64,000 bases of DNA from Natronorubrum tibetense GA33 (GTDB taxonomy: Archaea > Halobacteriota > Halobacteria > Halobacteriales > Natrialbaceae): assembly GCF_000383975.1 (NCBI RefSeq), contig NZ_KB913017.1, positions 751,133 through 815,132 on the forward strand, read 5' to 3'. The position numbers and the translations under genes were made by a program. Below the pieces are notes generated by a model. The model did no database searches. It saw only the letters and a list, made by a program, of their open reading frames with translations, and was not told where the DNA came from. Below, piece after piece: positions 1,173-64,000 of the stretch (position 1 is its first letter; each line of letters starts with the position of its first letter).

Positions 1173-1342
1173 GGAGCCGGCCGTAACAAGCCGGGCGCAG
1201 CCCCGACACCGGACTCCGATCGACGCCACGCCAGGAGTCGGTGATCGCGGTCACCGACTGCACGTCCGGCAGCGACTGCCCGGCGGGCAGCAGATGCCTA
1301 TCTATCTTCCGTCCTCGTAGCCTGTTCCGGCGGAGAGACATC

Positions 1343-1750
1343 ATGGTATCAACGCAAACCCAACAGGAGATCGAACGGACGCTCGGACAGGTACCGAGCT
1401 GGATGAATCAACTCGCGGAGCCGGCGAGCGACCACAGCTGGGGAATCTTTCGGGACCTCACCCTCGGTGAGAGCGAACTGACCCCGCGGGAGAAAGCCCT
1501 CGTCGGCGTCGGCGTCGCGGCGGCGGTCGGCTGTCCCTACTGCTCTCACTTCCACCGAGAGGAGGCCCGTCTCGCAGAGGTTTCGGACGACGAACTCGAG
1601 GAGACGGTCACGCTTGCAGGCACGACCCGGTACTTCTCGACGGTGCTCCACGGCAACGAGATCGACCTCGACGACTTCGTCGACGAGACGGACGAGATCG
1701 TCAACTACCTCAAAGAACAGGAAGCACCAGCCGCGGGTGCCGACGACTGA
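1343..1750 (+). CDS. AhpD-like carboxymuconolactone decarboxylase family protein
   Basis: 135 residues with the AhpD/CMD signature: a CPYCSHFH motif (Cys64, Cys67, His71) after an alanine-rich helix. In AhpD proteins this CxxC pair is the redox centre that reduces peroxiredoxin-type partners. The family also includes gamma-carboxymuconolactone decarboxylase, but the intact CxxC favours a disulfide/peroxidase role. The start at 1343 begins the conserved domain; the longer frame from 1241 has a non-conserved arginine-rich leader. It stands alone, with no peroxiredoxin beside it. Confidence 0.85.
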   Translation: MVSTQTQQEIERTLGQVPSWMNQLAEPASDHSWGIFRDLTLGESELTPREKALVGVGVAAAVGCPYCSHFHREEARLAEVSDDELEETVTLAGTTRYFSTVLHGNEIDLDDFVDETDEIVNYLKEQEAPAAGADD

Positions 1751-1788
1751 TCGGCCACCCTCGGCCGGTCTCACTTTCGAATCCGCGT

Positions 1789-1953
1789 TCAGCCGACCAT
1801 CTCGCGAAGAGTCCGTCTTGGCGATCGGAAGACCGCCCCCATCGCCCGCGGCGACGAGTCGGTACGGTACTCGGCGTCCGCATCGTCGCCGGCGACGACC
1901 GCGTACCGTCCCTCGCTCACGATCGACTCTCGGTCTGGATTTTCGTCGACCAT
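1789..1953 (-). CDS. Possible small protein, 54 residues
   Basis: The minus strand has an ATG at 1953 and a stop at 1789, encoding an acidic N-terminal half (MVDENPDRESIVSEG) and a basic tail (SPRRTLREMVG). Composition resembles small haloarchaeal proteins, and the gap between flanking plus-strand genes would otherwise be empty. No family is recognised and no clear TATA element is visible upstream. It could be a chance frame in GC-rich DNA. Confidence 0.3.
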   Translation of the reverse strand: MVDENPDRESIVSEGRYAVVAGDDADAEYRTDSSPRAMGAVFRSPRRTLREMVG

Positions 1954-2104
1954 GTGTGTGAACACCTCGCTGAATCGGTTCGTTCTTGTGCCGGCAACAG
2001 CCTCCTGCCGACGACGACCCCCTCGGCAACTGGACTCCCCACAGGACTGTCGCGCCGTCCGAGACATGGCAATCCTTTTCCGCGGTCGTACAGAATCCGA
2101 GGGT

Positions 2105-2485
2105 ATGTCCGACGAAAACGAAGCTAACAACGGTAGCGACGACGGCGAGGAAAAATCCTTCCGCGAGCGAGTCGAGGAGATTCGCGAAAAGCGCGCCGAA
2201 GAGGGCGAAGGCGAGGGCGAACCGCCGGAGAGTCCGTTCGGCGGCGGCGGTGGCGGCCCCGGCGGCATGGGCGGCGGCGGCAACCCGTTCGCACAGATGA
2301 TGGGCGGGATGATGGGCGGCGGTGGCGGCCCCGGCGGCATGGGCGGCGGACCGGGCGGCCCCGGCGGCCGCGGGGAAGAAGTCGGTAACGAGGAACTCGT
2401 TCAGGAGGTCCGACAGCTCCGCGACGAGATGCGCGACCAGACGCGCGCGCTCAAGCGGATCGCCGACGCACTCGAGGACAACTAA
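2105..2485 (+). CDS. Acidic Gly/Met-rich protein with C-terminal coiled coil
   Basis: 126 residues in three parts: a charged helix (about 1-40), a low-complexity glycine-methionine segment (about 46-90, repeats of GGGGPGGMGG), and a charged helical tail (EELVQEVRQLRDEMRDQTRALKRIADAL) with heptad spacing that suggests a short coiled coil. No signal peptide or enzymatic motif is present. The start at 2105 was chosen because the upstream extension is non-acidic and unlike the rest. A conserved-hypothetical haloarchaeal protein; oligomerisation is likely but function is unknown. Confidence 0.7.
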   Translation: MSDENEANNGSDDGEEKSFRERVEEIREKRAEEGEGEGEPPESPFGGGGGGPGGMGGGGNPFAQMMGGMMGGGGGPGGMGGGPGGPGGRGEEVGNEELVQEVRQLRDEMRDQTRALKRIADALEDN

Positions 2486-2583
2486 CGCCCGCTAATCTTC
2501 CGATTTTTGCGTCGACGTGTCGAGAGCCGCAGCGCTCGCTTTGTGACACAGCTACAGCACTCGCCTCCCAGCACAGCCACCGC

Positions 2584-2739
2584 TTACCAACCGCTCACCG
2601 ACGCGTAGGCGTCCCGAAGCCGGTCGACCGATCGCTCGAGACACTGCGACGCGGGTCCGGAGCGCTCGTCTAGCGCTCGCTCGAGCGCGCTTCGAAACGC
2701 CGCCAAGACGACGGCTATCCGGCCGACCGCTCGAGCCAT
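2584..2739 (-). CDS. Possible small helical protein, 51 residues
   Basis: The minus strand reads from ATG at 2739 to TAA at 2584 and gives an amphipathic helical peptide (RIAVVLAAFRSALERALDER, then RSVDRLRDAYASV). The alternation of hydrophobic and charged residues looks coding, and it fills most of an otherwise empty 330-base gap. No family is recognised. It lies just after the end of the PAP2 gene, on the same strand. Confidence 0.4.
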   Translation of the reverse strand: MARAVGRIAVVLAAFRSALERALDERSGPASQCLERSVDRLRDAYASVSGW

Positions 2740-2814
2740 CGGTCGTGCCAGTTGCGGGCGGTGTACGTAACCCCATTACTCGTCGACAAGAAAAGACGGC
2801 GATCTGTGGGTGCC

Positions 2815-3684
2815 TCACGAGTCGCGATTGCGGAGGCCGCGAATCGAGGAAACGCGTCCGTCAATCCAGTCCGAAAGCGACCAGCGGCCGACGAGGAGGT
2901 GTGCGAGTTCGACGCTGACGTACGCGAGCACGATTCCGGCGACGACGTCGATCACCCAGTGGATGCCGAGGTACATCGTCGAAATCGCGACCGAGACCCC
3001 GAGGAGGATCGCGACGACGTTCCACTTCGGATAGACGTCCCGCGTGCGGTAGGCCAGGAAGGTGACGGTCGCCGCGAGCGAGGTGTGCAGCGACGGGAAG
3101 ACGTTGGTGTTCCGGTTGACCTGCCGCGTGAGGTGTTGGTACTGTGGGTACGTGTCGTACAGTAGCGCCTCGACGAGTTCGGGCATCATGTTCCGCGGCC
3201 CGTAGGCGATGACGAAAATGTAGAGCACCAGCCCGAGGGTATAGTTCAGCGTGTACGCCGCTAAAAGCTCCCGCAGCGGCCGCGTGTTCGACAGCGCGAA
3301 GTAGGCGACGACTGGAAAGACCAGCAGGAAAATGTAGCCGTAGATGTAGATGAACGAGAAGTACGCGGTCAGCCACGGCGTCGCGAGAGACTGCAGCCAG
3401 ACGATGAATTGGCCCTCGATGTCGTAGATCGGCCCCGTGAGGTTCCAGGCGACCCCGAGCCACACTTCACCGATCCATGAGAGATGGGGAACCGCCTGCC
3501 TGGCGACGCTGTTGAACAGCAAGACGACGGCGAGAAGGACCGTGATCGGGGCGGCTGCTCGGATCCGCGAGCGCCACTCCGTCCGCGTCTCGCGGAGGCG
3601 ATAGCGGCCGACGAAGAGCGCAATCGAGACGATTACCATGAGCGTCACGACCGCGACTAACTGCGTCAGCACCTGTACCAACAT
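2815..3684 (-). CDS. PAP2-family membrane phosphatase/phosphotransferase (copy 1)
   Basis: 289 residues, predominantly transmembrane (about six segments, beginning directly after the start MLVQVLTQLVAVVTLMVIV). It has the PAP2/Aur1-type catalytic motifs: FPSLHTSLA (phosphate-binding histidine) and YLGIHWVIDVVAG (second histidine and aspartate). Such enzymes hydrolyse or transfer lipid-linked phosphates at the outer face of the membrane. The ATG at 3684 overlaps the TAA of the upstream lipoprotein gene (TAATG), so the pair is translationally coupled. The same two-gene arrangement recurs at 5577-8260. Substrate unknown. Confidence 0.85.
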   Translation of the reverse strand: MLVQVLTQLVAVVTLMVIVSIALFVGRYRLRETRTEWRSRIRAAAPITVLLAVVLLFNSVARQAVPHLSWIGEVWLGVAWNLTGPIYDIEGQFIVWLQSLATPWLTAYFSFIYIYGYIFLLVFPVVAYFALSNTRPLRELLAAYTLNYTLGLVLYIFVIAYGPRNMMPELVEALLYDTYPQYQHLTRQVNRNTNVFPSLHTSLAATVTFLAYRTRDVYPKWNVVAILLGVSVAISTMYLGIHWVIDVVAGIVLAYVSVELAHLLVGRWSLSDWIDGRVSSIRGLRNRDS

Positions 3685-5492
3685 TACTGTCTCACCCGGA
3701 GGTTCCCCTCCGAATCGTACCGGAACCCGGCGTCTTCGAACGCCGCTCGCACCGCCTCGACGTCGAGGTCGCCATCCGAACCGAGAAACGGCATCTCGGG
3801 GTCTTCCCCGTCCCACTCGAGTCTGTCGGGGACCCACTCGTCGGTGACGGGCGTCGCGATCGGTCTCGCGTGGCCGTCGAACACCTCCTCGACCAGCCAC
3901 GCTTTGTCGAGCAGCCGGGCGACTACCTGACGGAATCGCGGGTTGCCAAAGGGCGCCCTGCGGGCGTTGAACCCGAGGTGGTAGAACGTCCACGACGGTG
4001 ACTCGACGAGTTCGACGTCGTCGCTCTCTTCGATATCGTCGACGACGTAGGTCTCGAGGGCCGAACTCGTGACGTCGGCGGCGTCGTCCTCGAGCAGCTG
4101 GATCGCCGACGTGCTCCGCGGATCGATCTGGACGCGGAGTTCGTCGACCGTCGGCTCGGGGCGGTCGACATCTTCGCGCAGCGAAAAGTGGTCGTCGAAG
4201 CGCTCGAACGTGACGTGTTCCCGTTCGGAGCGATCGGCGTACTGAAACGGTCCGCTACCGATCGGCGGGAAGTTATTGGACACCACCGCCTCGGTCGTCC
4301 CTTGCGCGACGCGAACGCCGCGGACGGACGCTTCCGCTGCACGGTCGCGCCAGACGTGTTCGGGGAGGATCGGCACCATCAACGCCCGCTCGCCGACCTC
4401 CTGGCCCACGCCGACCGCGAACTCGAGGGTGGACTCGCCGGTCGCTTCGACCTCGTCGATCGCCGCGACGCGGCCCCGAAACCGCGGCGAGGGCGCGGGC
4501 GAGCCGTCGCCTCCAAGCGCGGTGTCCGCGAGGAAGCGATAACTGAACGCGACGTCGCTCGCGGTGAGCGACTCGCCGTCGTGGAACGTACAGTCGGGGT
4601 GGAGTTCGACGACGAGCGTCGACTCGTCGATCCACTCCCAGTCGTCGGCGAGCCACGGCTCGAGCGAGTGGGCGCCGTCGGCGGTGACGGTCTCGGTCGC
4701 GAGCGAGTCGTATAGCAGGTCGGTGACCGTTCCCCGGTCGCGGTACTCGGCAGTCAATGGGTTGAGATTCTGTGACGGGCGAGCGTCCATGTGGACGGCC
4801 CGAAGCTGTTCGCCGCTTTCGTCGGTCAGCGGCTCGAGGCCGAGATACCCACCTCGCGTCGCGAGGTGGCCGTCCGCCCAGCCCTCGAACCGGTCGGCCC
4901 GCACGAGTCGGTGCTCGGTCGGCGTACAGACGGGGATGAACGGCTGTTCGACGGCGAGCGCCTCGAGCAGCGTCTCGACGGTGTCGCGGCGCTCCTCGCC
5001 GTCGGTCTCTCGCTGTTCCTCGAGCAGGTCGTCGACCAGCAGGTTCGTAAAGCCGAAGGGGTTCTGCCAGCCGGATTCCTCGGCGTACAGCGAGTGCAGC
5101 GACTCGTAGAGAAAGTCCGGGTCGAGGCCGCCGGGATGCTGGCCGACGTAGATATCGAAGTCGTGATTAATCAAGATCGCCCGCAGAAACTCCTCGTTCG
5201 AGCGCATCTCGATGGCCGTGTCGACGCCGGCGGTCTCGAGGGCGGCGGCGATCTCTCGAGCCAGCCGGATGCTCTCTCGGTCGCCGTCTGCGGGAAGCGT
5301 CGTGATGGTCAGCGAGAGCTGTTCGATATCGTCCCGGTTGACGATGTTTCGGAACCGGCTGAGACAGCCGCTCGTCGACATCGTGAGTCCGGCGGCGCCG
5401 GCCAGCGCGGCCCGACGGCTGATGGCGGGCGACCGACCGCCACGGCGTCTCTGGCTATCGGTGTCGGACGACGCAGCTCCACGCTCACTCAT
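3684..5492 (-). CDS. Tat lipoprotein, SBP family 5, apparently circularly permuted (copy 1)
   Basis: 602 residues with a Tat signal (Arg26-Arg27) and lipobox ending at Cys43. It belongs to the dipeptide/oligopeptide-binding family (SBP_bac_5), but the domain order is shifted. Residues about 57-222 match the segment that normally closes the family (DFDIYVGQHPGGLDPDFLY, then QPFIPVCTPTEHRL). Residues about 231-330 match the usual mature N-terminus (NLNPLTAEY, LYDSLATE, WTF-type FHDGESLTASDVAFSY). The protein ends with NPRFRQVVARLLDKAWLV and AAFEDAGFRYDSEGNL, which normally lie mid-protein. No permease or ATPase gene is adjacent; the partner is the overlapping PAP2 gene. Confidence 0.85.
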   Translation of the reverse strand: MSERGAASSDTDSQRRRGGRSPAISRRAALAGAAGLTMSTSGCLSRFRNIVNRDDIEQLSLTITTLPADGDRESIRLAREIAAALETAGVDTAIEMRSNEEFLRAILINHDFDIYVGQHPGGLDPDFLYESLHSLYAEESGWQNPFGFTNLLVDDLLEEQRETDGEERRDTVETLLEALAVEQPFIPVCTPTEHRLVRADRFEGWADGHLATRGGYLGLEPLTDESGEQLRAVHMDARPSQNLNPLTAEYRDRGTVTDLLYDSLATETVTADGAHSLEPWLADDWEWIDESTLVVELHPDCTFHDGESLTASDVAFSYRFLADTALGGDGSPAPSPRFRGRVAAIDEVEATGESTLEFAVGVGQEVGERALMVPILPEHVWRDRAAEASVRGVRVAQGTTEAVVSNNFPPIGSGPFQYADRSEREHVTFERFDDHFSLREDVDRPEPTVDELRVQIDPRSTSAIQLLEDDAADVTSSALETYVVDDIEESDDVELVESPSWTFYHLGFNARRAPFGNPRFRQVVARLLDKAWLVEEVFDGHARPIATPVTDEWVPDRLEWDGEDPEMPFLGSDGDLDVEAVRAAFEDAGFRYDSEGNLRVRQ

Positions 5493-5524
5493 TCGGATCG
5501 TTTGTCACAGTTCGCCGGTGGCGG

Positions 5525-5539
5525 TATAACAGTATTGTG
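5525..5539 (-). promoter_or_regulatory. Probable promoter of the copy 1 SBP-PAP2 cassette
   Basis: The plus-strand text TATAACAGTATTGTG lies 33 bases before the start at 5492. The same motif, TATAACAATATTGCG, lies 31 bases before the start of the second cassette. The spacing fits a TATA element for leaderless transcripts. Conservation beyond the TATA core suggests a shared control element. Confidence 0.6.
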
Positions 5540-5576
5540 TTGGCGGGCGCCGAAACCCATGCGAGCGATTCGCGAG

Positions 5577-6416
5577 TTAGCGCGAGTCGGATCCGTCGGT
5601 CTTGTCGGAGCCGGTCAGTCGATCGACCGACGCTGACAGCGACCACCGACCGACGATGACGTCCGAGAGCCAGACGCAAAGCGCCGCGAGCGCGAGCCCG
5701 GCGACGACGTCGATTGCCCAGTGAATCCCGAGGTACATCGTCGAGATGATGACGCTGACCGCGAGCACGACGGCGACCGGGAACCACCACAGGTACTCGT
5801 CGCGGGAGAGGTAGGCGAAGATGCCGACCGTGGCTGCAAGCGAGGTGTGCAGCGACGGGAAGACGTTGGTGGCCCGGTTGACCTCCCGCGTGAGGTGCTG
5901 ATACTCGGGATTGTGATCGTACAGCACGGTCTCGAGTTCGCCGGCGAGAATGTTTCGCGGCCCATAGGCGATGACCAGGAGATACAGGGCGAGCCCGAGC
6001 CCGTAGTTGAGCGTGTACGCCGTCAACAGCCGCCGGAACATGCGTGTGTCCGAGAGCACGAAGTACGCCACGGCCGGGAAGATCAGCAGATAGGTGTAGC
6101 CGTAGACGTAGATCCACGCGAAGTACTCCGTCAGATAGGAGTTGGCGACCCGCTGAAAGATCAGGATAAACTCGCCCTCGATGTCCCGGATCGCCGAGGT
6201 CATGTGGAACCCGATATCAGGATCGCTCCGTCGCATCATCCGGTTGAGAACCAACGCGATTCCCAGCACGACGAGCACCGGGCCGGAGATCCGCAGGCGA
6301 GTGCGCCACTCGGTAAACGTGGTCTCGAGCCGTTCGCGGCCGATAAACAGCGCGATCGAAATCGGGAGCATGATCCCGACGACAACCGCGACTCGCGTCA
6401 GTACCTCCGTGAGCAT
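5577..6416 (-). CDS. PAP2-family membrane phosphatase/phosphotransferase (copy 2)
   Basis: 279 residues, multi-pass membrane protein paralogous to the one at 2815. The same motifs are present: FPSLHTSLAATV and YLGIHWAIDVVAG, preceded by a conserved AYGPRN loop. The start at 6416 overlaps the upstream stop (TGATG). C-terminal tails of the two copies differ, while the catalytic core is closely matched. As with copy 1, a lipid-phosphate substrate at the outer membrane face is expected from the family, but none can be named. Confidence 0.85.
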   Translation of the reverse strand: MLTEVLTRVAVVVGIMLPISIALFIGRERLETTFTEWRTRLRISGPVLVVLGIALVLNRMMRRSDPDIGFHMTSAIRDIEGEFILIFQRVANSYLTEYFAWIYVYGYTYLLIFPAVAYFVLSDTRMFRRLLTAYTLNYGLGLALYLLVIAYGPRNILAGELETVLYDHNPEYQHLTREVNRATNVFPSLHTSLAATVGIFAYLSRDEYLWWFPVAVVLAVSVIISTMYLGIHWAIDVVAGLALAALCVWLSDVIVGRWSLSASVDRLTGSDKTDGSDSR

Positions 6417-8260
6417 CAGTAGTGCCTCAGTCGTCCGGCAGCCTCGTCGTACCGATAGCCGATATCCTCGAACATATCGCGTGCGAGCGTGACGTTCGGT
6501 TCGCCGTTGCTACCGAGGAATCGGGTGACGAAGTCGTCGTCCTCGCTGTCCCACTCGAGGTGTTCCGGGACCCACTCGTCGGTGACGGGCGTCGCCAGCG
6601 GCTTCGCGTGGGCCTCGTCGAAGAACACTTCGTCGATGACCCATTCCTTGTCGATCAGCTGTGCGACTGCCTGCCGGAAGCGGAAGTCGCCACACGGCAT
6701 CCGTCGCGTGTTGAATCCGAGGTGGTAGAACGTCCACGAGTCGTCGTCGTAGCGTTCGATCTCGTCGTCCTCGGGGATGTCGGCCAGCGAGAACGCCTCG
6801 AGCATCGACTCCGTCAGATCGGCGCCGCCGCTTGCGACGCGCTCGATGGAGGAGACGCTCCCGGGGTCGACGGTGAACCGAATCTCGTCGACGGTCGGTT
6901 CGAGGTGGACGTCCTTGTCGAGCGTGTCGTCGTCCTCGGCCAGCGTGAAGTGGTCGTCGAAGCGCTCGAGGGTGAGGTGGTCGCGCTCGGACTGACTCTC
7001 GAACTGGTAGGGACCGCTGCCGATCGGCTCGATCGAACTACTGGTAACGATCCCCCACCGCCCCTGTGGCGCGGAGAAGTCGTCGATGCTTCCGACGCGA
7101 TCGTTGACTTCCTCCAACCAGACGTGTTTCGGAAGGATCGGAACCGTAAGGGCTCGTTCGGCGACCGCTCGACCGGCATCGAACGTCATCCGGAACTGGA
7201 AGTCCTCTCCGTACTCGGTGTCGATTTCGTCGACCGCGCTCACGTGGCCGCGGTAGCGGGGTGAAGGAGAGGGGTTCGCTGCGAGCGTGTACGACGTATC
7301 CTCGAGGAAGTCGTACGTGAACTCGACGTCCTCCGGGGTGACCGGCTCTGCGGGGACCGATTCGGTTTCGTGGAACGTACAGTCCTCGCGGAGCGTGACG
7401 GTCGCGGTCGTCGTCTCGACATCCTCGTCGTCCGTCGACTCCCAGCTCACGTCGCTGGCGAGCCACGGCTCGACTTCGACGGTGCCGTCTTCGGTTTCGA
7501 CGGTCGTGCTGAGCGAATCGTACAGCAGGTCGATGATCGTTCCTCGTTCCCGAACCGTCGCCGAGAGGGGGTTGACGTTTCGCGACGGTCGTGCGTCGGT
7601 GACGAGCGCGTCTAACCGCTCGACGTCGTCGTCCGGTTCGAGACCGAGATAGCCCCGCCTGGTCGCGAGGTGGCTGTCGCCCCAGCCTTCGAACCGATTG
7701 CTGGCGACGCGGTACTCGGTCGGCCGACAGATCGGCTCGAACGGTTTCTCGATAGCGATCTCTTCTAACAGCGATTCCATCTTCGTTTCGCGTTCCTCGC
7801 CGTCCGCCTGCCGTTGCTCCTCGAGGAGGCGGTCGATCCCCCTGACGGTGAGACCGAAGGGGTTCTGCCAGCCGGATTCGTCGGCGTACGTGGAGTGGAG
7901 GGCCTCGTACAGAAAGTCCGGATCGAAATCCGCAGGATGGCGACCGACGTACAGATCGAAGTCGTGATCGATCAGGGTCATCTCGAGGAATTCGGCGCGA
8001 GAGCGCACCGTGAGATCCGCGTCGATGCCGACTGCCTGGAGGTTCGACTCGAGATGCCGAGCGATCTGGACGGTTTCTCGGTTGTCGTCGCGAGGGACCG
8101 TGACGATGGAGAGCGAAAGCTGATCGTCTCCGTCACCGGTGACGACGCTGCGAACGCTGTCGATACAGCCGCTCAGCGAGAGCGATAGCCCCGCTGCACC
8201 TGCAGCGAGGACGGAGCGTCGATCGACGCCGTCGACCGGATCAGTCGTGTTGCGATTCAT
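6416..8260 (-). CDS. Tat lipoprotein, SBP family 5, apparently circularly permuted (copy 2)
   Basis: 614 residues; twin arginine at 14-15 and lipobox cysteine at 32. The domain order matches the copy at 3684: the normally C-terminal lobe first (HDFDLYVGRHPADFDPDFLY; PFEPICRPTEYR), then the normally N-terminal lobe (DARPSRNVNPLSATVRERG; CTFHETESV), and a tail of FRFRQAVAQLIDKEWVIDEV and MFEDIGYRYDEAAGRL. The tail would run on into the N-terminal segment LSLSIVTVPRDD if the ends were joined. It overlaps the downstream PAP2 gene. Probably a surface-anchored binding protein; ligand unknown. Confidence 0.85.
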   Translation of the reverse strand: MNRNTTDPVDGVDRRSVLAAGAAGLSLSLSGCIDSVRSVVTGDGDDQLSLSIVTVPRDDNRETVQIARHLESNLQAVGIDADLTVRSRAEFLEMTLIDHDFDLYVGRHPADFDPDFLYEALHSTYADESGWQNPFGLTVRGIDRLLEEQRQADGEERETKMESLLEEIAIEKPFEPICRPTEYRVASNRFEGWGDSHLATRRGYLGLEPDDDVERLDALVTDARPSRNVNPLSATVRERGTIIDLLYDSLSTTVETEDGTVEVEPWLASDVSWESTDDEDVETTTATVTLREDCTFHETESVPAEPVTPEDVEFTYDFLEDTSYTLAANPSPSPRYRGHVSAVDEIDTEYGEDFQFRMTFDAGRAVAERALTVPILPKHVWLEEVNDRVGSIDDFSAPQGRWGIVTSSSIEPIGSGPYQFESQSERDHLTLERFDDHFTLAEDDDTLDKDVHLEPTVDEIRFTVDPGSVSSIERVASGGADLTESMLEAFSLADIPEDDEIERYDDDSWTFYHLGFNTRRMPCGDFRFRQAVAQLIDKEWVIDEVFFDEAHAKPLATPVTDEWVPEHLEWDSEDDDFVTRFLGSNGEPNVTLARDMFEDIGYRYDEAAGRLRHY

Positions 8261-23407: not shown

Positions 23408-24163
23408 TTAGCGCCGTGCCAGCACGTGGCCATCGTGGCACCGACAGTTGCACTGGAAATAGGCCGCGATATATCCCGCCGTTCCGAACGAGTCGACGAG
23501 TGTCTCAGCATCCCCTCGCTCCTCGACTTCGACGTTGACGATCGATCGTTCGTCGCATTCGAGCGCCTCGAGTGCTCGCTCAGCCCGCTGTCGATCGGGC
23601 TGGAGGGCCTCGATAAGTATCGATTCGACGGTCCACTCTGGAAGCACCGGCACGCGTCCGCCGGCGATCGCCGTCGAAATATCCTCGTCAGTGTAGAAAT
23701 ACTCCGCGAGCTCCGGGCCGTCGAACGTTCGAAGTCGTTCCTTCGCCGCCTCGTGGAACCGATTGACTACGAGGAAACACTCGATGTCATGCTTGCTCAC
23801 GCGACGCTCATATTTCGTGGCACTCTCGAGTTTCTCGGGCGTCGTGACGACGAACACTACATCCAGGTGTTCCGTTCGTTCACCGACCGCTTCCACGCCC
23901 GGCGGACAATCTTCGACCGTCCATTCGACTCCGAGCGCGTCGTCGGTGCTCGTCTCGCGGTCTTTTACCAGCCGCGTTGCCTCACCAGTAATCTGTACAC
24001 GGGTTCGCTCGGCCAGTCGGGACGCGACGAGCGCGGCGATCGTCGTCTTCCCGACACCCGGATCGCCGGCGAACGCGAGACGACGCGTCTCGCACTCGGA
24101 CTCATCCTCGAGCGCTCCGATCGCCGTTGGGTTCGTTGACACAGTTGTTGCTAGCAAACACAT
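23408..24163 (-). CDS. CooC/MinD-like P-loop ATPase with Cys/His-rich tail
   Basis: 251 residues. Deviant-type Walker A GDPGVGKTT at 33-41 and a CooC/SIMIBI-like layout (LDVVFVVTTPEKLES; FLVVNRF). CooC-type ATPases assist metal insertion into enzymes. The C-terminus ends with Cys238, Cys240, Cys242, His243 and His246 (CxCxCHxxH), a plausible metal site, and the family resemblance plus neighbours suggest a metal-delivery role. A TATA-like CTAAAATAAC on the minus strand lies 22-30 bases before the ATG. Which metal is handled cannot be read. Confidence 0.75.
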   Translation of the reverse strand: MCLLATTVSTNPTAIGALEDESECETRRLAFAGDPGVGKTTIAALVASRLAERTRVQITGEATRLVKDRETSTDDALGVEWTVEDCPPGVEAVGERTEHLDVVFVVTTPEKLESATKYERRVSKHDIECFLVVNRFHEAAKERLRTFDGPELAEYFYTDEDISTAIAGGRVPVLPEWTVESILIEALQPDRQRAERALEALECDERSIVNVEVEERGDAETLVDSFGTAGYIAAYFQCNCRCHDGHVLARR

Positions 24164-24436
24164 CTACGATGATCAAATTTGTTATTTTAGAGTTGGGGAT
24201 TAATAATACCGGTCGCGAGCACGGCTCGAGCGTTCGGACACGGCCATGAACAGAAAGCCGACGACGTCTGGGGCTCCTAAGCGTACGCAAAAGAAGGGAC
24301 GCTACAGGCGCAGAACCAGAGACAGTGTATACACCCTGAGAGTACAATTGAAGGGAGTTACCGCGCTTGTGTCTTATCGATTACGCTTCCTATCATATAA
24401 TACCAACCCATACAGGGTAGTATATGACCCCGGCCG
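24164..24436. other. Gap marking entry into an AT-richer accessory patch
   Basis: About 270 bases with the promoter of the CooC-like gene at its left side. From about 24340 onward base composition shifts toward AT (CTATCATATAATACC). No credible frame, tRNA fragment or transposon end was recognised. Confidence 0.4.
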
Positions 24437-24628
24437 TTAGTCCCCCTTCACATTGCGTAATTTGGCGAGGAACTGGTCTGGATTGTCCGTCGCAAGCCTG
24501 AACATCGCCGTATGGATCTCCCATGGATATGCGGTGAGGAATTCGTCATGTTCGATTTCCAATTTGGCGATCTCGCGTTTGAATTCATCACCGTCCTCAA
24601 CTCGGATTGTTACTGGTTCGCTCGTCAT
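24437..24628 (-). CDS. Small hypothetical protein, 63 residues
   Basis: An acidic-basic mixed helical peptide (VEDGDEFKREIAKLEIEHDEFLTAYPWEIHTAMFRLATDNPDQFLAKL). The ATG at 24628 and stop at 24437 are clear, and codon use is less GC-biased than in the core genes. No family recognised. It is the first gene of the accessory patch, divergent from the gene at 24809. Confidence 0.55.
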   Translation of the reverse strand: MTSEPVTIRVEDGDEFKREIAKLEIEHDEFLTAYPWEIHTAMFRLATDNPDQFLAKLRNVKGD

Positions 24629-24808
24629 GCCTATACCTAAGCGATGGGAGAGTATTGGCGATTGGTTAATGCGTTAAAGTAGCGAATCGATAATGCAGTG
24701 CTCGAGATCTGCTCTCTCGAGGGTCATTCGCCGGTCGCGATGAGGGGTTCGCAGGATGTGGGGGTCGTCAAGAGGTATATTATTGTTCCCGGTGCGCCAT
24801 ATGCTGTC

Positions 24809-25159
24809 ATGTCGGGTGATTTGCCCGATAACGAGGAGTTAGCACGGTTGATTGTGCAGGAAGTGGGTCAGGAGGGGGACGCTGATGAGGATGAGGTTCA
24901 GCGGCTGGCAGATCTCACGGAGAAGACGAAGATTTCGGAGGATGAGATAAATGAGATTATTGAGGAAGCTGATGACGGGGAGGAGTTGGTAGAGAGGTAC
25001 ACCGAGAGGACTGCGGAATTGATGGATGATGTCGATCCCGATGATCTTGGATCTGGTGAGTGGTTGGTTGGGATAACGTTAGCGAGTTGCGTCGAGGTGG
25101 TGCAGTACGCGTCTGATTTGGTTTACAACTCCGTCACACTTTCTGATGGCTATATCTAA
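24809..25159 (+). CDS. Acidic hypothetical protein, 116 residues
   Basis: Starts MSGDLPDNEELARLIVQEV at 24809; an upstream frame to 24698 is not acidic and was not used. The protein is acidic and helical, with a hydrophobic C-terminal stretch (EWLVGITLASCVEVVQYASDLV). Codons end in A/T far more often than in the core genes (for example runs of GAT, GAG, TTG), which suggests foreign origin. Function unknown. Confidence 0.6.
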   Translation: MSGDLPDNEELARLIVQEVGQEGDADEDEVQRLADLTEKTKISEDEINEIIEEADDGEELVERYTERTAELMDDVDPDDLGSGEWLVGITLASCVEVVQYASDLVYNSVTLSDGYI

Positions 25160-25227
25160 TAGATCATATATATTATTCTAATCTATGTTGTGTGAGGTTT
25201 AACAGATAAGCTGTGTCAATAGCAGAC

Positions 25228-25803
25228 ATGGGGAGAACTAATACATCCTCTCAATCGTGCACTATCAGAAGACGAAGCTATCTACTCGGAACCGTAGGCG
25301 TAGTAGCGTTGAGTGGGTGTGCAGGTGAAGGAGAAGAAGAAAATGAAGAGGAAGAACAAGAGCCAGAAGATATTGTGGCTGCATGGATCAACGATAACAG
25401 GGGTGACATTACCAGTGCATTTGACGAAGTGGAAGAAGGTGAGGATTTTGTTGGACGAGAACGCTTCGTAGCTGCGCTATCTCATTTCTATGATGGATTT
25501 GAAGCATTACAATCTCTGCATGAGGATATTGAAGGACGAGCTGGTGATGCCGATGACGAAAATCTATCCGAGTTATGGACTATTACGGATGATTATCTTT
25601 TCAATCTCTCGGAGGCGGCCGCTAGTCAGTATCTTGCGATGAATGAGATGGCGGATGGGAACAGATATGTGGCAATAACTGAGTACGATCATGCAACTGA
25701 ATTTTATCAAACCGCGTCTGATTACGCAGAGGAGTTAGATAATAATCTGGATAATGCAATTGAGGATTCAATACCAACGCATAGGCCCACTGAGATCTTG
25801 TAG
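25228..25803 (+). CDS. Tat-type lipoprotein of unknown function
   Basis: 191 residues. The signal has RRRSYLL and a lipobox VALSGC, after which a long acidic linker (EGEEENEEEEQEPED) leads to a helical domain (AAWINDNRGDITSAFDEVEEGEDF; FYDGFEALQSL). It is likely anchored outside the cell. ATG at 25228 gives a normal Tat signal length; a GTG at 25213 is possible. AT-rich codon use matches the neighbouring accessory genes. Confidence 0.65.
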   Translation: MGRTNTSSQSCTIRRRSYLLGTVGVVALSGCAGEGEEENEEEEQEPEDIVAAWINDNRGDITSAFDEVEEGEDFVGRERFVAALSHFYDGFEALQSLHEDIEGRAGDADDENLSELWTITDDYLFNLSEAAASQYLAMNEMADGNRYVAITEYDHATEFYQTASDYAEELDNNLDNAIEDSIPTHRPTEIL

Positions 25804-25928
25804 TCCTAATTCTGGAATATGAATCGACGCACCCAATATTCACAATTAAAACCAACTCGAGTTACGCTCGCCGAGATCGCGAACGTTCGTTATTGTCCAC
25901 CCACCTCTCCCATTTATTATTCTAAACC

Positions 25929-26276
25929 ATGAATGTCAAGGTAGGCACAATGAACGAACTCCGAACGCTTAGAGACGCGTTTTATATGGGATTGATGGGA
26001 GTGTTGAGCCTGTTCATTTTTGTCGCGGCAATGCGCATTTGGGCCGCGGACTCACCGGGAGAGTCAGTTGAAGTGTTCGCACAGTCTGTCTCGATTCTTG
26101 TTCTCGTCGCCCTTCCGACGTCGGAGATTGGCATAATCCTCGCAATGATTATGGCGACGGTCGGCGCAGCGATCCCGTTATCTGGTCGTAACCCGCACCT
26201 CATCCTTGCTGCAGTATTCGCAGGGATGGGTTGGGGAGCCGCTAATATTCTCGTTAAACTGGTGTTCGGCATCTGA
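25929..26276 (+). CDS. Small membrane protein, three predicted helices
   Basis: 115 residues. Three hydrophobic segments: about 19-39 (FYMGLMGVLSLFIFVAAM), about 53-80 (SVSILVLVALPTSEIGIILAMIMATVGAAIP) and the C-terminal LILAAVFAGMGWGAANILVKLVFGI. No charged motif or family is recognised. A second ATG at 25950 is an equally good start. Part of the accessory patch of orphan genes. Confidence 0.6.
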   Translation: MNVKVGTMNELRTLRDAFYMGLMGVLSLFIFVAAMRIWAADSPGESVEVFAQSVSILVLVALPTSEIGIILAMIMATVGAAIPLSGRNPHLILAAVFAGMGWGAANILVKLVFGI

Positions 26277-26351
26277 GGTCAAATTCAACTACTTACGAGA
26301 ACGTTCACTCGAGCCGATAATTATTTGCGATTACCATTACTGGGTGCGACC

Positions 26352-26996
26352 ATGAACAGACGCGCGTTCGTCGCAGCCGCGGTCTCCGGGTCGGCTTTGC
26401 TTGCCGGTTGCTCGGAAGCGGAGGAATTGGCGAGCGAAGCGACATCGGCGGCTAGTAGCGGGACTTCGCTCGGCGACACTGCAATGTACGGCGATATCGA
26501 AGTCACAGTCAGTGACTCGATGACGGCTGAGCAGTTCTTTCTAAATGATGAGGAGATCGAGTCCCCGGGGAACGGCACCTTCGCCCTATTCGAAGTTGAA
26601 TCTCACAATACGGACATTACCGAGCGGGAAGTCCCGCATGTGAGCGACACTCATTATGAAACGCTCGAGAAAGAAGAGAATACGTTCTACATGGGAGATA
26701 TCAACGATATCAGAGTCTACGGCGATGGTGAGGGTGGGCACTTCCCAGATGTCGAGTGGCGGGGAGAGTTCCAGATGGAGGAGCAGGATGATGGGATGAT
26801 TACTATGGGCAGTCAGATGCAGTTCCGCGTTGATGGAGAAGAGCTGGACCCGTATCCAGTCGGCGTTAGTCGACCGAGAATTGACGCAGATACAACGGTC
26901 ATAGGCTGGGTGGTGGGTGTGATTGATCGCGATGCGACTCCAGCTCTCAAAATCAATTTTGACGAGACGGAGGTGATGTGGGAGGCTAACGATTAA
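26352..26996 (+). CDS. Tat lipoprotein with DUF4352-like beta domain
   Basis: 214 residues. Starting at 26352 gives MNRRAFVAAAVSGSALLAGC, a short Tat signal with lipobox cysteine at residue 20. The mature domain is beta-rich (GDTAMYGDIEVTVSDSMTA; GTFALFEVESHNTDI; VEWRGEF), as in extracellular immunoglobulin-like DUF4352 proteins. It is probably surface-exposed. Third lipid- or membrane-associated gene in a row in this patch, suggesting a surface-related cargo. Confidence 0.65.
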   Translation: MNRRAFVAAAVSGSALLAGCSEAEELASEATSAASSGTSLGDTAMYGDIEVTVSDSMTAEQFFLNDEEIESPGNGTFALFEVESHNTDITEREVPHVSDTHYETLEKEENTFYMGDINDIRVYGDGEGGHFPDVEWRGEFQMEEQDDGMITMGSQMQFRVDGEELDPYPVGVSRPRIDADTTVIGWVVGVIDRDATPALKINFDETEVMWEAND

Positions 26997-26998
26997 TT

Positions 26999-27385
26999 TC
27001 ATCGGTCGCCGCCTTGTCCCGCATATATGTCAAGGGTTTTGCTCACATTCTCACGGTGACCTTCCGCGTCTTGAGCTACTCCGGGGCGTATCTGAACGCT
27101 CGTAATCGACCATTCGCCGTCAAACATACAATCCATCTTTCAGTGACCACCAACAACGGTGAACCACCCTCTGCTACCCATGGTATGGTCAATCCCTTCG
27201 TTTTCGTTCACGATCCCCCGAAACTCGCCTCGTGTTATCGGCCAAGTGGGGAAGTCCTCGAATAGTAGCGATTCGTAGTGATCTCGAAGTTGCCCTGTCG
27301 AAACCCACTACGCTTTCCAGAAACCGGGTGGAGAGGGGATCGACGCTCCTGCAATTGCATAACAGTAGTTCGCAATGCGATTTCT
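26999..27385 (-). pseudogene. Decayed gene: one frame with two internal stops
   Basis: A single minus-strand frame runs from 27385 to TGA at 26999 (129 codons), broken by TAG at 27308-27310 and TGA at 27140-27142. Both interruptions are one change from TGG. Between stops the translation looks coding (DHYESLLFEDFPTWPITRGEF; MFDGEWSITSVQIRPG). No start codon is available at the top. The remaining piece from ATG 27127 to 26999 could still be expressed as 42 residues. Family not recognised. Confidence 0.4.
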
Positions 27386-27423
27386 TTATTCAAAGTTGGG
27401 CGTGAAAATAGCGTTCAGTATAG

Positions 27424-27560
27424 GTGAAGGACTTACCACTGCGGTCGCGTCGCAAGCGCAGCACCCGCGAGCGACCGTCGGGAGCGAGCGGCCTTTTTAG
27501 CGTAGATTTTTGGAGGAGCGGTGAGCGAGCAACGCGAGCGAACCCGACGAGAAAAAGGTA
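27424..27560. repeat. GCGAGC-rich dispersed-type repeat segment
   Basis: This noncoding piece is packed with GAGCGAG/GCGAGC words (GGTGAGCGAGCAACGCGAGC and similar) between two short T- and A-runs. Sequence of this kind recurs between genes in many haloarchaea, from memory. It lies between the decayed gene and tRNA-Arg. Other parts of 27386-27912 hold no supported gene; short minus-strand frames there are basic and non-conserved. Confidence 0.4.
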
Positions 27561-27912
27561 CTTCTGCACACGTAGCTACCGAATTGCCTGTTTCAGTTTC
27601 AGGCGTGATCCTGAATAAAGAAATTCTGATACTATCTACTGGTAGCCTTAGATTTTCTTTGGTTCTCATGGTAACATACAGGGGTGTATGGGAGGTATAT
27701 GACACCCTGATATGTAATCCCATGCCCTCATATGTGAGTTATCAATTATGATATCGGACCAGATAGTCCGCTTTGGAAACATTGAATCCGTCCTAATCGC
27801 ACACGGGAGTGGAGGAGGAACCTGCGACGGGTTGAACTTTAGATGGAAACGCCCGCCAAAACTAAGTAGGAGTCGACGCCGTCTTGTGAATCCGAATTAA
27901 TTTCAGAAGGGA

Positions 27913-27987
27913 TGGGCGCTACAGGATTTGAACCCGTGGCAACTTGGTCCGAAGCCAAGCACTCTGTCCAGACTGAGCTAAGCGCCC
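27913..27987 (-). tRNA. tRNA-Arg (anticodon TCG)
   Basis: On the minus strand the sequence folds as a full cloverleaf: acceptor GGGCGCT pairs with AGCGCCC, D arm GCTCAGTCTGGACAGAGT, anticodon arm CTTGG-CTTCGGA-CCAAG giving anticodon TCG, variable loop TTGCC, and T arm ACGGG-TTCAAAT-CCTGT. The discriminator base is A; CCA is not encoded. No intron. The accessory patch lies on its 3' side, the usual side for integration, but no duplicated 3' end was found. Confidence 0.95.
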
Positions 27988-28135
27988 TCACTTCAGCATT
28001 TTCCGGCGACCCCGTATAAGTCGCTCGGTTTGGAGGCATTTCGACAGCCACCATCACGCACACTATCGGCACTTCTCAGTCGATGAAAAGTGCCGCCCAG
28101 GGTCTTTGCCGTGTACCCCGAACACCTAGCTACTC

Positions 28136-59840: not shown

Positions 59841-61166
59841 ATGACAACGGGCCTAGAAGATGTTGGCTCCGAGGAGTGTTCCGATCCGAAGGAGATCGGA
59901 GATTCCTCGAGTCACTGTCACGGCGGTGAGCAAGCGAAGCTAACGGATCGCAGAGTGATGACGGACGGCGGTCAGGCGGAGATGGCAGACAAAGGCGACG
60001 AAGACGAGAAGTCGGTAGCAGATAGTGACGAAGCGTCCGCAGACGATTCAGAAGAAGAAGCGGAAGAGGACGAAGCCAAAGAGGAGGAAGCTGAGGAAGA
60101 GGAAGCCGAGGAAGCCAAAGAGGACGAAGCTGAGGAAGCCGAGGAAGCCAAAGAGGACGAAGCTGAGGAAGAGGAAGCCGAGGAAGCCGAAGAGGACGAA
60201 GCTGAGGAAGAGGAAGCCGAAGAAGACGAAGCCGAGGAAGAGGAAGCCGGAGAAGAAGAAACTGAAGAGGAAGACGAGGACGCACTGGACGACACCGGCG
60301 ACCTCGTCGAAGACGACCGTGAGGAGGGCCACGCCGACGACGCCGAAGTGGTGTACGAGGGCGACGACGCCTCCGGCGTCCTGCACCTCGATCTCGACGG
60401 GCTGTTTCTCGACGTACTCGGCCTCGAGGTGAACCTAAACCCGGTTACGCTCGATATCTCGGCTCGTCCGGGAGGGAACAACCTGCTCGGAAACCTCTTG
60501 TCCGCGGTCACGGGCCTGTTGGATGGACCCGGTGCGATGCTGGACAAGGCGAAATCACTCCTGAAGAAGCCGCTGGAGCTGCTCAAAAAAGTGCCGGGGA
60601 AGGCAAAGGAAGTTCTCAGCGGACTTCTGGAGAAGCCAAAGGAGATGCTCAGCGGATTGCTGAGCAAGCCGAAGGAACTGCTCACCAAACTCCTCGGTAT
60701 CGGCGGCGAGGACGCAGAAGGCGAGGAAGCGGAGACGGACGAAGAGGGCGAAGAAACGGAATCCGGCGGTCGCATCGCCTCGCTCGCAAGCTGGTTGAAG
60801 GGAATCGTCAGCAAGCCGGTGAAGTGGCTACGCGGGCTCTTCGGTAGCGCTGACGAGGAATCGGCCGAGGAGGACGACGAAGCTGCAGCCGAGGAGGCCG
60901 AGGGCGCTGAGCCCGAACTAGAAGACGAAGAAGAGGCTGCAGAGGACGAGGAAGAGGCTGCAGAAGAATCACCCGGTCGAATCTCCGCTGCCGGCAGCTG
61001 GCTGAAAGGGAAGCTCGCCGGCCTCATTCCCAGCTTCCCGATCGAGGACATCGTCGCGATGGTCGTCAGTCAGGTAATCGAACAGTTGATCGAGCAGTTA
61101 GAACCTGAGGCCGACGAGGAGGAGAGCGGTGACCAATCGGACGCAGCGTCACAGGAGGCAGCCTAA
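59841..61166 (+). CDS. Large acidic protein with 11-residue amphipathic repeats
   Basis: 441 residues. A long Glu/Ala repeat region (about residues 70-145, units such as EEEAEEAKEDEAEE) precedes a beta-type domain (GVLHLDLDGLFLDVLGLEVN, then VTLDISARPGGNNLLGNLL), which I recall from other haloarchaeal and bacterial proteins. Then come 11-residue amphipathic repeats PGKAKEVLSGL, LEKPKEMLSGL, LSKPKELLTKL. Two SWLKG modules and a hydrophobic end follow (PIEDIVAMVVSQVIEQLIEQL). A TATA-like TATAATG coincides with the ATG, so ATG codons at 59958 or 59982 are possible starts. Confidence 0.7.
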   Translation: MTTGLEDVGSEECSDPKEIGDSSSHCHGGEQAKLTDRRVMTDGGQAEMADKGDEDEKSVADSDEASADDSEEEAEEDEAKEEEAEEEEAEEAKEDEAEEAEEAKEDEAEEEEAEEAEEDEAEEEEAEEDEAEEEEAGEEETEEEDEDALDDTGDLVEDDREEGHADDAEVVYEGDDASGVLHLDLDGLFLDVLGLEVNLNPVTLDISARPGGNNLLGNLLSAVTGLLDGPGAMLDKAKSLLKKPLELLKKVPGKAKEVLSGLLEKPKEMLSGLLSKPKELLTKLLGIGGEDAEGEEAETDEEGEETESGGRIASLASWLKGIVSKPVKWLRGLFGSADEESAEEDDEAAAEEAEGAEPELEDEEEAAEDEEEAAEESPGRISAAGSWLKGKLAGLIPSFPIEDIVAMVVSQVIEQLIEQLEPEADEEESGDQSDAASQEAA

Positions 61167-61168
61167 AT

Positions 61169-61741
61169 ATGAGTGAAGAATCCGAATCCACGTCACTGGC
61201 ACAGCGAATCGACTTCGAAAAGATCACCGAAAACATCGACGTCAACGATCTGATCGAGGGAACGCAATGGGAAGACGAGATCGACGAAGATCAACCGCTC
61301 GGAGAGGCCCTCGGTGCCCAGATCGGCGCGCTCATCGGCCGGAAAGTCGGCGAATCCATCGGCCGAACGATCGGGGACATGGTCATTGACGAACTGTTCG
61401 GACCGGACGAAGAACCAGTGCTGGAAGAGGAAGAAGTCGAGGAGGCTGAAGAAGCGGAAGACGAGGACGAAGAAACCGAAGCGGAAGACGACGAAGCCGA
61501 GGACGAGACGGAAGACGAAGGCGAGGAAGAACTCGAGACGGACGACGAAGCGGAGGAAATGACCGAAGAGGCGGAGGAGTCCGAAGTCGAAGACGCCGCC
61601 GAAGAGACGGACGAAGCCGAAAGTGAGGGCGAAGACGAGGCGAGCGAGGACGCGGACGACGAGTCCGAATCCGGCGAGGAGTCCGAGGCGGAAAGCGAGG
61701 ATGAATCGACTGACGAGGACGGCGAGGACGAGGAAGAATGA
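61169..61741 (+). CDS. Acidic protein with seven-glycine zipper
   Basis: 190 residues. Residues 45-69 contain seven glycines exactly four apart (G45, 49, 53, 57, 61, 65, 69; PLGEALGAQIGALIGRKVGE region), forming an ideal helix-packing glycine zipper. After residue 78 only an extreme acidic tail remains (more than half Glu/Asp). Starts three bases after the previous stop, so it is co-translated. No family assigned. The zipper implies self- or hetero-assembly with the next protein. Confidence 0.75.
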   Translation: MSEESESTSLAQRIDFEKITENIDVNDLIEGTQWEDEIDEDQPLGEALGAQIGALIGRKVGESIGRTIGDMVIDELFGPDEEPVLEEEEVEEAEEAEDEDEETEAEDDEAEDETEDEGEEELETDDEAEEMTEEAEESEVEDAAEETDEAESEGEDEASEDADDESESGEESEAESEDESTDEDGEDEEE

Positions 61742-61801
61742 CCATGCTATCGAGCCTGCTTCCGAACACGGGATCGCTCCCGATAACTCGAGGTGAACGC
61801 G

Positions 61802-62767
61802 ATGAGTAAGGGTGGCCTGAAAGAGCTGGTCGCCAGGGAGGTAAGCGACCAGCTCGAGGTGACCGACCTGCTCGGCGATGGAAGCATTGAGGACGGGATC
61901 GACGGCGGCGAGGTCGGTGCCGCGGTCGGTCGCGAGTTCGGCGAGCGAATCGGTCGCGAACTGGGCGGGGCAATCGGTCGTGGGATCCACAAATCGATCG
62001 CCGAAGGGATCGAGAAGGAGAAAGACCGCAAAGAGATTCAGTCGGACGTCACGTCGGCGGTCCGTGAGTCTATCCATGAGACGGTCGAGGAGAACGACGC
62101 GAAGGAGTCGGTTCAAGCGTTGGCCGGGGAGGTCTCCGAGGGGAGCGGTCTCGAGGGGGTCCTCGAGAGCGATGACGAACCCGAGAGCGAGGCCGAGAGT
62201 GAAGATGACGCCGAGGAGTCCGAGAGTAAAGCGGACGATGCGAAATCGGCCGTCGCGTCGGCCGCTGAGGATGTCGGTGACGCTAGTGGAATCAGCGATA
62301 TGCTCGAGGGCGACGAAGAGAGGGAGGAGTCGGACGACGGTGACTCCGAAGCGGAACCAGGAGACGAGGCTGAGAAAGAAGACGAGGGAGAAACGGACGA
62401 AGCGGAAGATGAGGCCGAAGCAGACGAAACGGAAGACGAGGCTGAGGAAGAAGACGAGGCCGAAGCAGACGAAGAGCAAGCAGAGGAAGCCGATAGCGAG
62501 GAGCAGACGGAGTCGGAATCCGAAGGCGAAGGGACTGGCGACGACTCTGAGCCGTCGGTGGAAGACATCGAGGATCTCCGACAGGACACCCTCGAGGACT
62601 TCCTTGGCGTCATGTCCTACGAGGACCTCCAGTCGGTGGCCAAAGACGTCGACGTGAAGGCGAACCTTAGCCGCGAGGAGATGACGGAAGAGATCATCGC
62701 GGCGGTGACGGACGAGGACGACGAGTCCAACGACGAGAACTCGGAAGCGGAAGCCGAAGCCACGTAA
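61802..62767 (+). CDS. Acidic protein with seven-glycine zipper and Rho-N/SAP-like end
   Basis: 321 residues. A glycine zipper at residues 35-59 (G35, 39, 43, 47, 51, 55, 59; GEVGAAVGREFGERIGRELG region) parallels the upstream protein. An acidic disordered middle region follows. The C-terminus VEDIEDLRQDTLEDFLGVMS, YEDLQSVAKDVDVKANLSRE, EMTEEIIAAV resembles a Rho-N or SAP-type helix-loop-helix, which can bind nucleic acid or protein. ATG at 61802 preferred to GTG at 61793. Confidence 0.75.
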   Translation: MSKGGLKELVAREVSDQLEVTDLLGDGSIEDGIDGGEVGAAVGREFGERIGRELGGAIGRGIHKSIAEGIEKEKDRKEIQSDVTSAVRESIHETVEENDAKESVQALAGEVSEGSGLEGVLESDDEPESEAESEDDAEESESKADDAKSAVASAAEDVGDASGISDMLEGDEEREESDDGDSEAEPGDEAEKEDEGETDEAEDEAEADETEDEAEEEDEAEADEEQAEEADSEEQTESESEGEGTGDDSEPSVEDIEDLRQDTLEDFLGVMSYEDLQSVAKDVDVKANLSREEMTEEIIAAVTDEDDESNDENSEAEAEAT

Positions 62768-62857
62768 CCGACCGTCGTCCTTCGGGCGTTCACTGTCCGA
62801 GATCACCGGTACTGCGAACCGACGGCCGAAGCTGATCGACAGCGACAGAGAGACACT

Positions 62858-63955: not shown

Positions 63956-64000
63956 TCGTCGCTCGAGTCATACCTCACACCGCCTGTAGCCGGCACAGGA

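Follow-up and report, generated by a model that had tools for sequence, protein, structure and literature searches.

A natural circular permutation of a lipid-tethered ABC binding protein is known from TpMglB-2 (Tp0684) of Treponema pallidum, assigned to 'Cluster Bc'; its crystal structure is known, and the protein binds ligand and changes conformation (PMC4990184). Tethering was suggested by its authors as a possible reason for the topology (PMC4990184). In the literature searched, subscription papers excluded, no other natural permuted ABC binding protein was found, and no report of a permuted SBP_bac_5 protein or of an archaeal case. DNA methyltransferases and swaposin exemplify permutation by duplication, in which tandem intermediates are expected and have been seen, and gene fission plus fusion is another standard route to permutants (PMC3320104).

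The window analyzed here, the whole stretch of 64,000 nucleotides from Natronorubrum tibetense GA33, encodes two family-5 substrate-binding lipoproteins (SBPs) that share with TpMglB-2 the trait of a natural circular permutation. TpMglB-2 has the cluster B sugar-binding fold and is found in spirochaetes and Gram-positives, whereas the window SBPs are archaeal, belong to cluster C/family 5 and fail the criterion of a cluster B (type I, sugar-binding) fold. In TpMglB-2 the cut lies in the N lobe and the old N-part stands at the C-terminus, whereas the archaeal cuts are inferred to lie in the second lobe; unlike TpMglB-2, the archaeal permutants would have at least six origins, and unpermuted sisters are available. 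With DppA, OppA, AppA and NikA the window SBPs share homology over the whole protein, the same predicted fold and a lipobox anchor like that of tethered members, but their order is permuted at ~OppA 356–361, the anchor would sit on the other lobe and adjacent importer genes are lacking. The topological change is that of DNA methyltransferases and swaposin in a different protein family (PMC3320104); unlike there, the SBP signal peptide must stay in front, and the change recurs within one family and one phylum. The features of the locus are:

2815..3684, minus strand: PAP2_3-family membrane enzyme, start codon overlapping the SBP 1 stop (TAATG)
3684..5492, minus strand: family-5 substrate-binding lipoprotein 1 (SBP 1, 602 aa), read as permuted (ORF, Pfam, profiles)
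5364..5492, minus strand: SBP 1 signal peptide, RR motif and lipobox ending at Cys43 (TSGC) (sequence)
4896..5330, minus strand: SBP 1 old C-terminal segment, profile 352–490 of 514, ~OppA 356–503 (profile, structure alignment)
4788..4895, minus strand: SBP 1 junction of old C-terminus and old mature N-terminus (profile match, by subtraction)
3687..4787, minus strand: SBP 1 old N-terminal two thirds, profile 31–352, ~OppA 1–361 (profile, structure alignment)
5577..6416, minus strand: PAP2_3-family membrane enzyme, start codon overlapping the SBP 2 stop
6416..8260, minus strand: family-5 substrate-binding lipoprotein 2 (SBP 2, 614 aa), read as permuted (ORF, Pfam, profiles)
8165..8260, minus strand: SBP 2 signal peptide, RR motif and lipobox ending at Cys32 (LSGC) (sequence)
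7667..8137, minus strand: SBP 2 old C-terminal segment, profile 348–500 (profile match)
6419..7603, minus strand: SBP 2 old N-terminal two thirds, profile 29–353 (profile match)

Order of parts in the window lipoproteins

Both proteins start with a twin-Arg motif and a lipobox (SRRAAL...TSGC in SBP 1, DRRSVL...LSGC in SBP 2), fulfilling the criterion for haloarchaeal Tat lipoproteins; the lipobox cysteine was invariant across a 35-sequence alignment, lipidation itself being only predicted. Their sole Pfam match was SBP_bac_5 (PF00496), with scores of 149.0 and 128.4 bits against a gathering cut-off of 32.4, and full-length homology and fold matches were to family 5/cluster C. In the genome search, however, PF00496 did not run colinearly: within the same ORF, its positions 286–360 matched the N-terminal part and 1–286 the C-terminal part. 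Homology and predicted fold thus place the window SBPs in SBP_bac_5, although their sequence order departs from it. Two in-house profiles concurred. On the main one, built from 40 ordinary archaeal relatives and 514 positions long, ordinary family members gave a single stretch (~h1–513), SBP 1 matched as h352–490 then h31–352, and SBP 2 as h348–500 then h29–353; the second, made from five ordinary SBPs encoded in the window genome, also returned the swapped order. The layout is therefore a lipobox followed by the ordinary C-terminal ~145 residues, then the ordinary mature N-terminus, and a stop at the old cut. A PDB search with a profile of the permuted family aligned query 241–548 to AppA (1xoc) 46–320 (i-E 8e-23) and query 36–186 to chain 350–497 (i-E 3e-6), DppA (8z1z) was likewise matched in swapped order, and none of the PDB matches listed was a solved chain with the permuted order.

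An AlphaFold2 model (35 sequences; pLDDT 89.9, pTM 0.88) was compared with known structures. By sequential structural alignment, model residues 176–560 corresponded to OppA 1–361 (1ola), and residues 177–560 to AppA 18–357 (Z 22.8). Modelled alone, the N-terminal part reached a pLDDT of 71.5 and a best Z of only 8.0, and it matched exclusively C-terminal ranges (OppA 356–503, DppA 336–494, MppA 375–503); nearly all of the 50 matches listed were family-5 chains in their C-terminal range. These Z-scores are weak on their own, and it is the consistency of the matched range that carries the weight. Since the two parts map to OppA 1–361 and 356–503, the whole OppA chain is tiled with one cut at ~356–361. 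A complete two-lobed cluster C fold is thus predicted, without experimental structure or binding data.

These results bear out the initial annotation, which had proposed from the letters alone that both SBPs are circularly permuted: sequence profiles, structure prediction and relatives all support it. All four kinds of comparison (Pfam, PDB profiles, in-house profiles and structure) place the ordinary C-terminal segment after the lipobox, and the old N-terminus starting at ~residue 231 and the terminal sequence FEDAGFRYDSEGNL had been given correctly. Of the checks it had proposed, the alignment to SBP_bac_5 placed 286–360 before 1–286, and the predicted structure covered OppA in two parts, 1–361 and 356–503; a second full N-lobe upstream of residue 230, which would have refuted it, is absent. 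It had not mentioned the overlapping PAP2 gene after each SBP gene, the haloarchaea-wide occurrence of this topology, the permutation of other families in the window genome, whether at this cut or at a different one, or the unpermuted sister genes that display the event directly.

The presence of two similar genes close together in the window could raise the suspicion that fragments of neighbouring ordinary SBP genes were read as one through an error of assembly, frame or annotation. As the initial annotation had held, assembly is not at fault: both SBPs are single open frames without stops, and the order recurs colinearly across independent assemblies. Among ~165 matches listed from 292 Halobacteria genomes, all but one aligned colinearly with profile A1 (~10–595 of 597), and 47 named haloarchaeal loci from many genera share the window SBP order, the best named relative of SBP 1 being a protein of Natronorubrum texcoconense (91% identity). 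Signal peptide and junction are conserved in the alignment of relatives, contrary to what an artefact would give, and this explanation can be practically discarded. The swapped-order signal is far beyond chance and was seen in dozens of genomes.

It could also be imagined that an unrelated gene supplied the N-terminal part, which would then merely resemble the missing one; this was proposed as a possibility for TpMglB-2, the permuted part of which is poorly conserved (PMC4990184). This is scarcely credible here: the N-part of the window family matches the C-part profile with 43–48 bits, no better match to another family was found in Pfam or PDB, and in the sister pairs described below the two halves resemble the ordinary protein to the same degree (41–65%, or 83–88% in genus g118). 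True circular permutation of a DppA/OppA-like (cluster C, SBP_bac_5) fold is the best explanation for both window lipoproteins, and very probably the correct one.

Cut sites, ordinary sisters and number of origins

Permuted order is not confined to the window pair. Six of the 12 family-5 genes of the window genome are permuted (the pair, L010, L008, L007 and L005), as are ~33 of ~83 in nine haloarchaeal genomes, which were not randomly chosen; L107 and L133 were recognized by the order of their profile matches. Four cut positions were distinguished on the 514-position profile: cut A at ~352 (window pair, L010, L008, L007 and others), cut C at ~325 (L133 family), cut B at ~435 (L005 family) and cut B' at ~450 (L158/L165).

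In each of four families, an ordinary sister aligned to the permuted protein as two swapped halves whose breakpoints adjoin, which fulfils the criterion for a circular permutant. By BLASTP, L007 240–657 aligned to L180 160–579 with 62% identity and L007 54–236 to L180 579–761 with 65%; the corresponding halves were 54 and 52% identical in L005/L126, 49 and 47% in L133/L129, and 41 and 49% in L158/L175. The breakpoints were 579/579 for L007/L180, 401/404 for L133/L129, 540/537 for L005/L126 and 492/485 for L158/L175. A PF00496 match read through the L007 stop was considered as a remnant of the old gene and rejected, the 30 codons beyond being unlike the continuation of the ordinary sisters; DppB starts ~90 bases beyond that stop, and there is no scar. 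Overlaps at the profile end in L117, L189 and L115, considered as duplicated segments, look like C-terminal extensions instead.

Domain III of OppA spans ~271–486. With these limits, and without measurement in three dimensions, all four cuts are inferred to fall in domain III, that is, in the second lobe; as the cuts are all in one lobe, the lipid tether would shift from lobe I to lobe II.

Trees were computed by quick search on sequences rotated back to the ordinary order. The four topology labels required 7–8 changes, the minimum possible being 3, and AU tests rejected a single clade of all permuted sequences (p 3e-46), one of every cut-A sequence (7e-69) and one of every cut-B sequence (8e-6). 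Judged from these sequence trees, at least six independent permutations took place in archaea and one origin is rejected; those counted are the main cut-A clade, L007/L152, a non-halophile genus, B, B' and C, the exact number being uncertain because the trees come from a quick search. A history of one ancient permutation, undone several times by a return to the ordinary order, would accommodate the grouping of most cut-A members in one clade, and an unrooted tree cannot give the direction everywhere. Nevertheless, different cut positions are incompatible with descent from a single event, all three single-clade hypotheses failed the AU test, and permuted genes of the non-halophile genus are nested among ordinary ones, making such a history very unlikely.

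That genus, g118, belongs to another family (f15) of the same phylum. Junction profile A4 spanned the junction in two of its genomes, whose genes L223 and L224 are permuted at cut A, as is a gene in a third genome (G828); four g118 genomes carry the ordinary order. Within the genus, permuted L237–L239 were compared with ordinary L240–L243. Permuted and ordinary g118 proteins are 83–88% identical in matching pieces, and their coding DNA is 77–80% identical in the swapped halves, matching the closeness among ordinary relatives. The permuted gene adjoins a DppBCDF operon and the ordinary one lies at another locus. Since ordinary genes are found throughout the rest of f15 and the permuted ones are nested among them, the direction was from ordinary to permuted, and the g118 permutation is a recent event outside the halophiles. 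Separately, L257 (G848:C2:101000-108000; ORF 2733–4496, minus strand) is a permuted SBP of a further f15 genome and lacks a lipobox; it has a C-terminal hydrophobic anchor ending TPGFGVIAVIAGVMAATYLLRRRR, which resembles a PGF-CTERM tail.

Across 398 Pseudomonadota genomes, all seven matches (E <= 1e-22) to the junction covered its N-terminal side only; the sensitivity of this search was limited, the two accepted non-halophile junctions having scored 4e-23 and 1e-22 and only 8 candidates per genome having been scored. Plasmid tblastn joins pieces regardless of order and is therefore uninformative on topology.

Routes to a permuted gene

A match across the junction profile in G372, from yet another family, was rejected as a permutant. 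The locus (L225, G372:C18:9000-15500; ORF 1310–4387, plus strand) is one ORF of 1026 aa consisting of two complete ordinary family-5 SBPs in tandem, the repeats being 69% identical. This is the intermediate state predicted by 'permutation by duplication' (PMC3320104). We infer that each permutant arose by tandem duplication, the first signal peptide being retained, after which the N-part of the first copy and the C-part of the second were lost. The binding cleft would be kept while the tether changes lobes, a shift inferred to be tolerated, and perhaps favoured, where SBPs are tethered in cells with a single membrane. This route is an inference, and the window lineage has no surviving intermediate.

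Gene fission and fusion, the other standard route (PMC3320104), might have produced the permutants instead, and the location of the permuted g118 gene away from the ordinary one would be in keeping with it. Yet no separate half-genes were seen, the N-terminal signal peptide was kept every time, and a full tandem duplicate exists in nature (L225), leaving fission and fusion unlikely without disposing of it; duplication is the route that we retain. The archaeal cases, all from single-membrane cells, fit the tethering idea, which is unproven, and no selective reason has been shown.

Gene neighbourhood and possible function

The window genes are arranged SBP-PAP2-SBP-PAP2, with no importer genes nearby. 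The PAP2 partners score 71.3 and 68.5 bits with PAP2_3 (PF14378; cut-off 27), and the catalytic motifs GPRN, FPSLHTS and STMYLGIHWxxD are conserved across 68 sequences; the partners fulfil the family criteria but are coupled to a binding lipoprotein. No description of an SBP-PAP2 pair was found in the literature searched. The association is constant: a PAP2 gene adjoins the SBP in 47 of the 47 named haloarchaeal loci, and SBP and PAP2 genes overlap in all eight loci checked, nearly always by 1–4 bases. The window genome has one more such pair with a permuted SBP, its third, at L010 (G000:C1 ~23.4–25.2 kb), 37% identical to SBP 1.

Dpp/Opp importer loci are recognized by adjacent DppB/C permease and ATPase genes, a criterion that the window pair fails: no Dpp permease gene was found within ~5 kb of the pair or of the 47 related loci, and ATPase-like genes lie near only three of these 47. 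By contrast, L005, L007 and L008 of the window genome fulfil it, each directly preceding a DppBCDF operon. Permuted SBPs of other families almost always adjoin a permease gene and therefore very probably still serve importers; the ordinary sisters L159 and L180 have such a neighbour too.

Two readings of the window SBPs were considered. Orphan SBPs that share permeases occur in other systems, and related permuted SBPs adjoin permease genes, so that the window SBPs could still deliver ligand to an ABC importer whose genes lie elsewhere, the PAP2 gene being a mere neighbour. This is possible, but it leaves the PAP2 adjacency, kept in 47 of 47 loci from many genera with no Dpp permease within ~5 kb, without an explanation, and we are inclined to doubt it. 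The alternative, put forward tentatively and with slightly less than even confidence, is that they no longer serve importers and act as a tethered ligand-binding partner of the PAP2 phosphatase/phosphotransferase encoded by the overlapping gene. This rests on gene order only, with no binding data.

Elsewhere in the window, positions 24001–28000 have a G+C content of 0.49–0.52 against ~0.64 in the remainder, with raised GC skew, and are perhaps mobile or foreign; positions 60001–64000 show strong AT skew (0.35–0.42) and GC skew (0.17–0.21) over 4 kb.

As a conjecture, which we hold to be rather less likely than not, permutation may have occurred repeatedly and convergently because an anchor on lobe II in place of lobe I benefits a tethered SBP, one lineage having in addition been recruited into a surface system of tethered SBP and translationally coupled PAP2 enzyme. 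Natural circular permutation usually passes for something that happened once, long ago, between distant relatives. Here, the trees point to one family permuted at least six times, with sisters up to 88% identical in single pieces, a tandem intermediate and four cuts, and this combination makes the origin of permutants, the transport role of the topology and the placement of the tether directly testable. About half of the family-5 proteins of this genome are not correctly annotated or aligned by standard colinear profiles, and the analysis brings to light an SBP-PAP2 gene pair that is conserved in haloarchaea and lacks an explanation.
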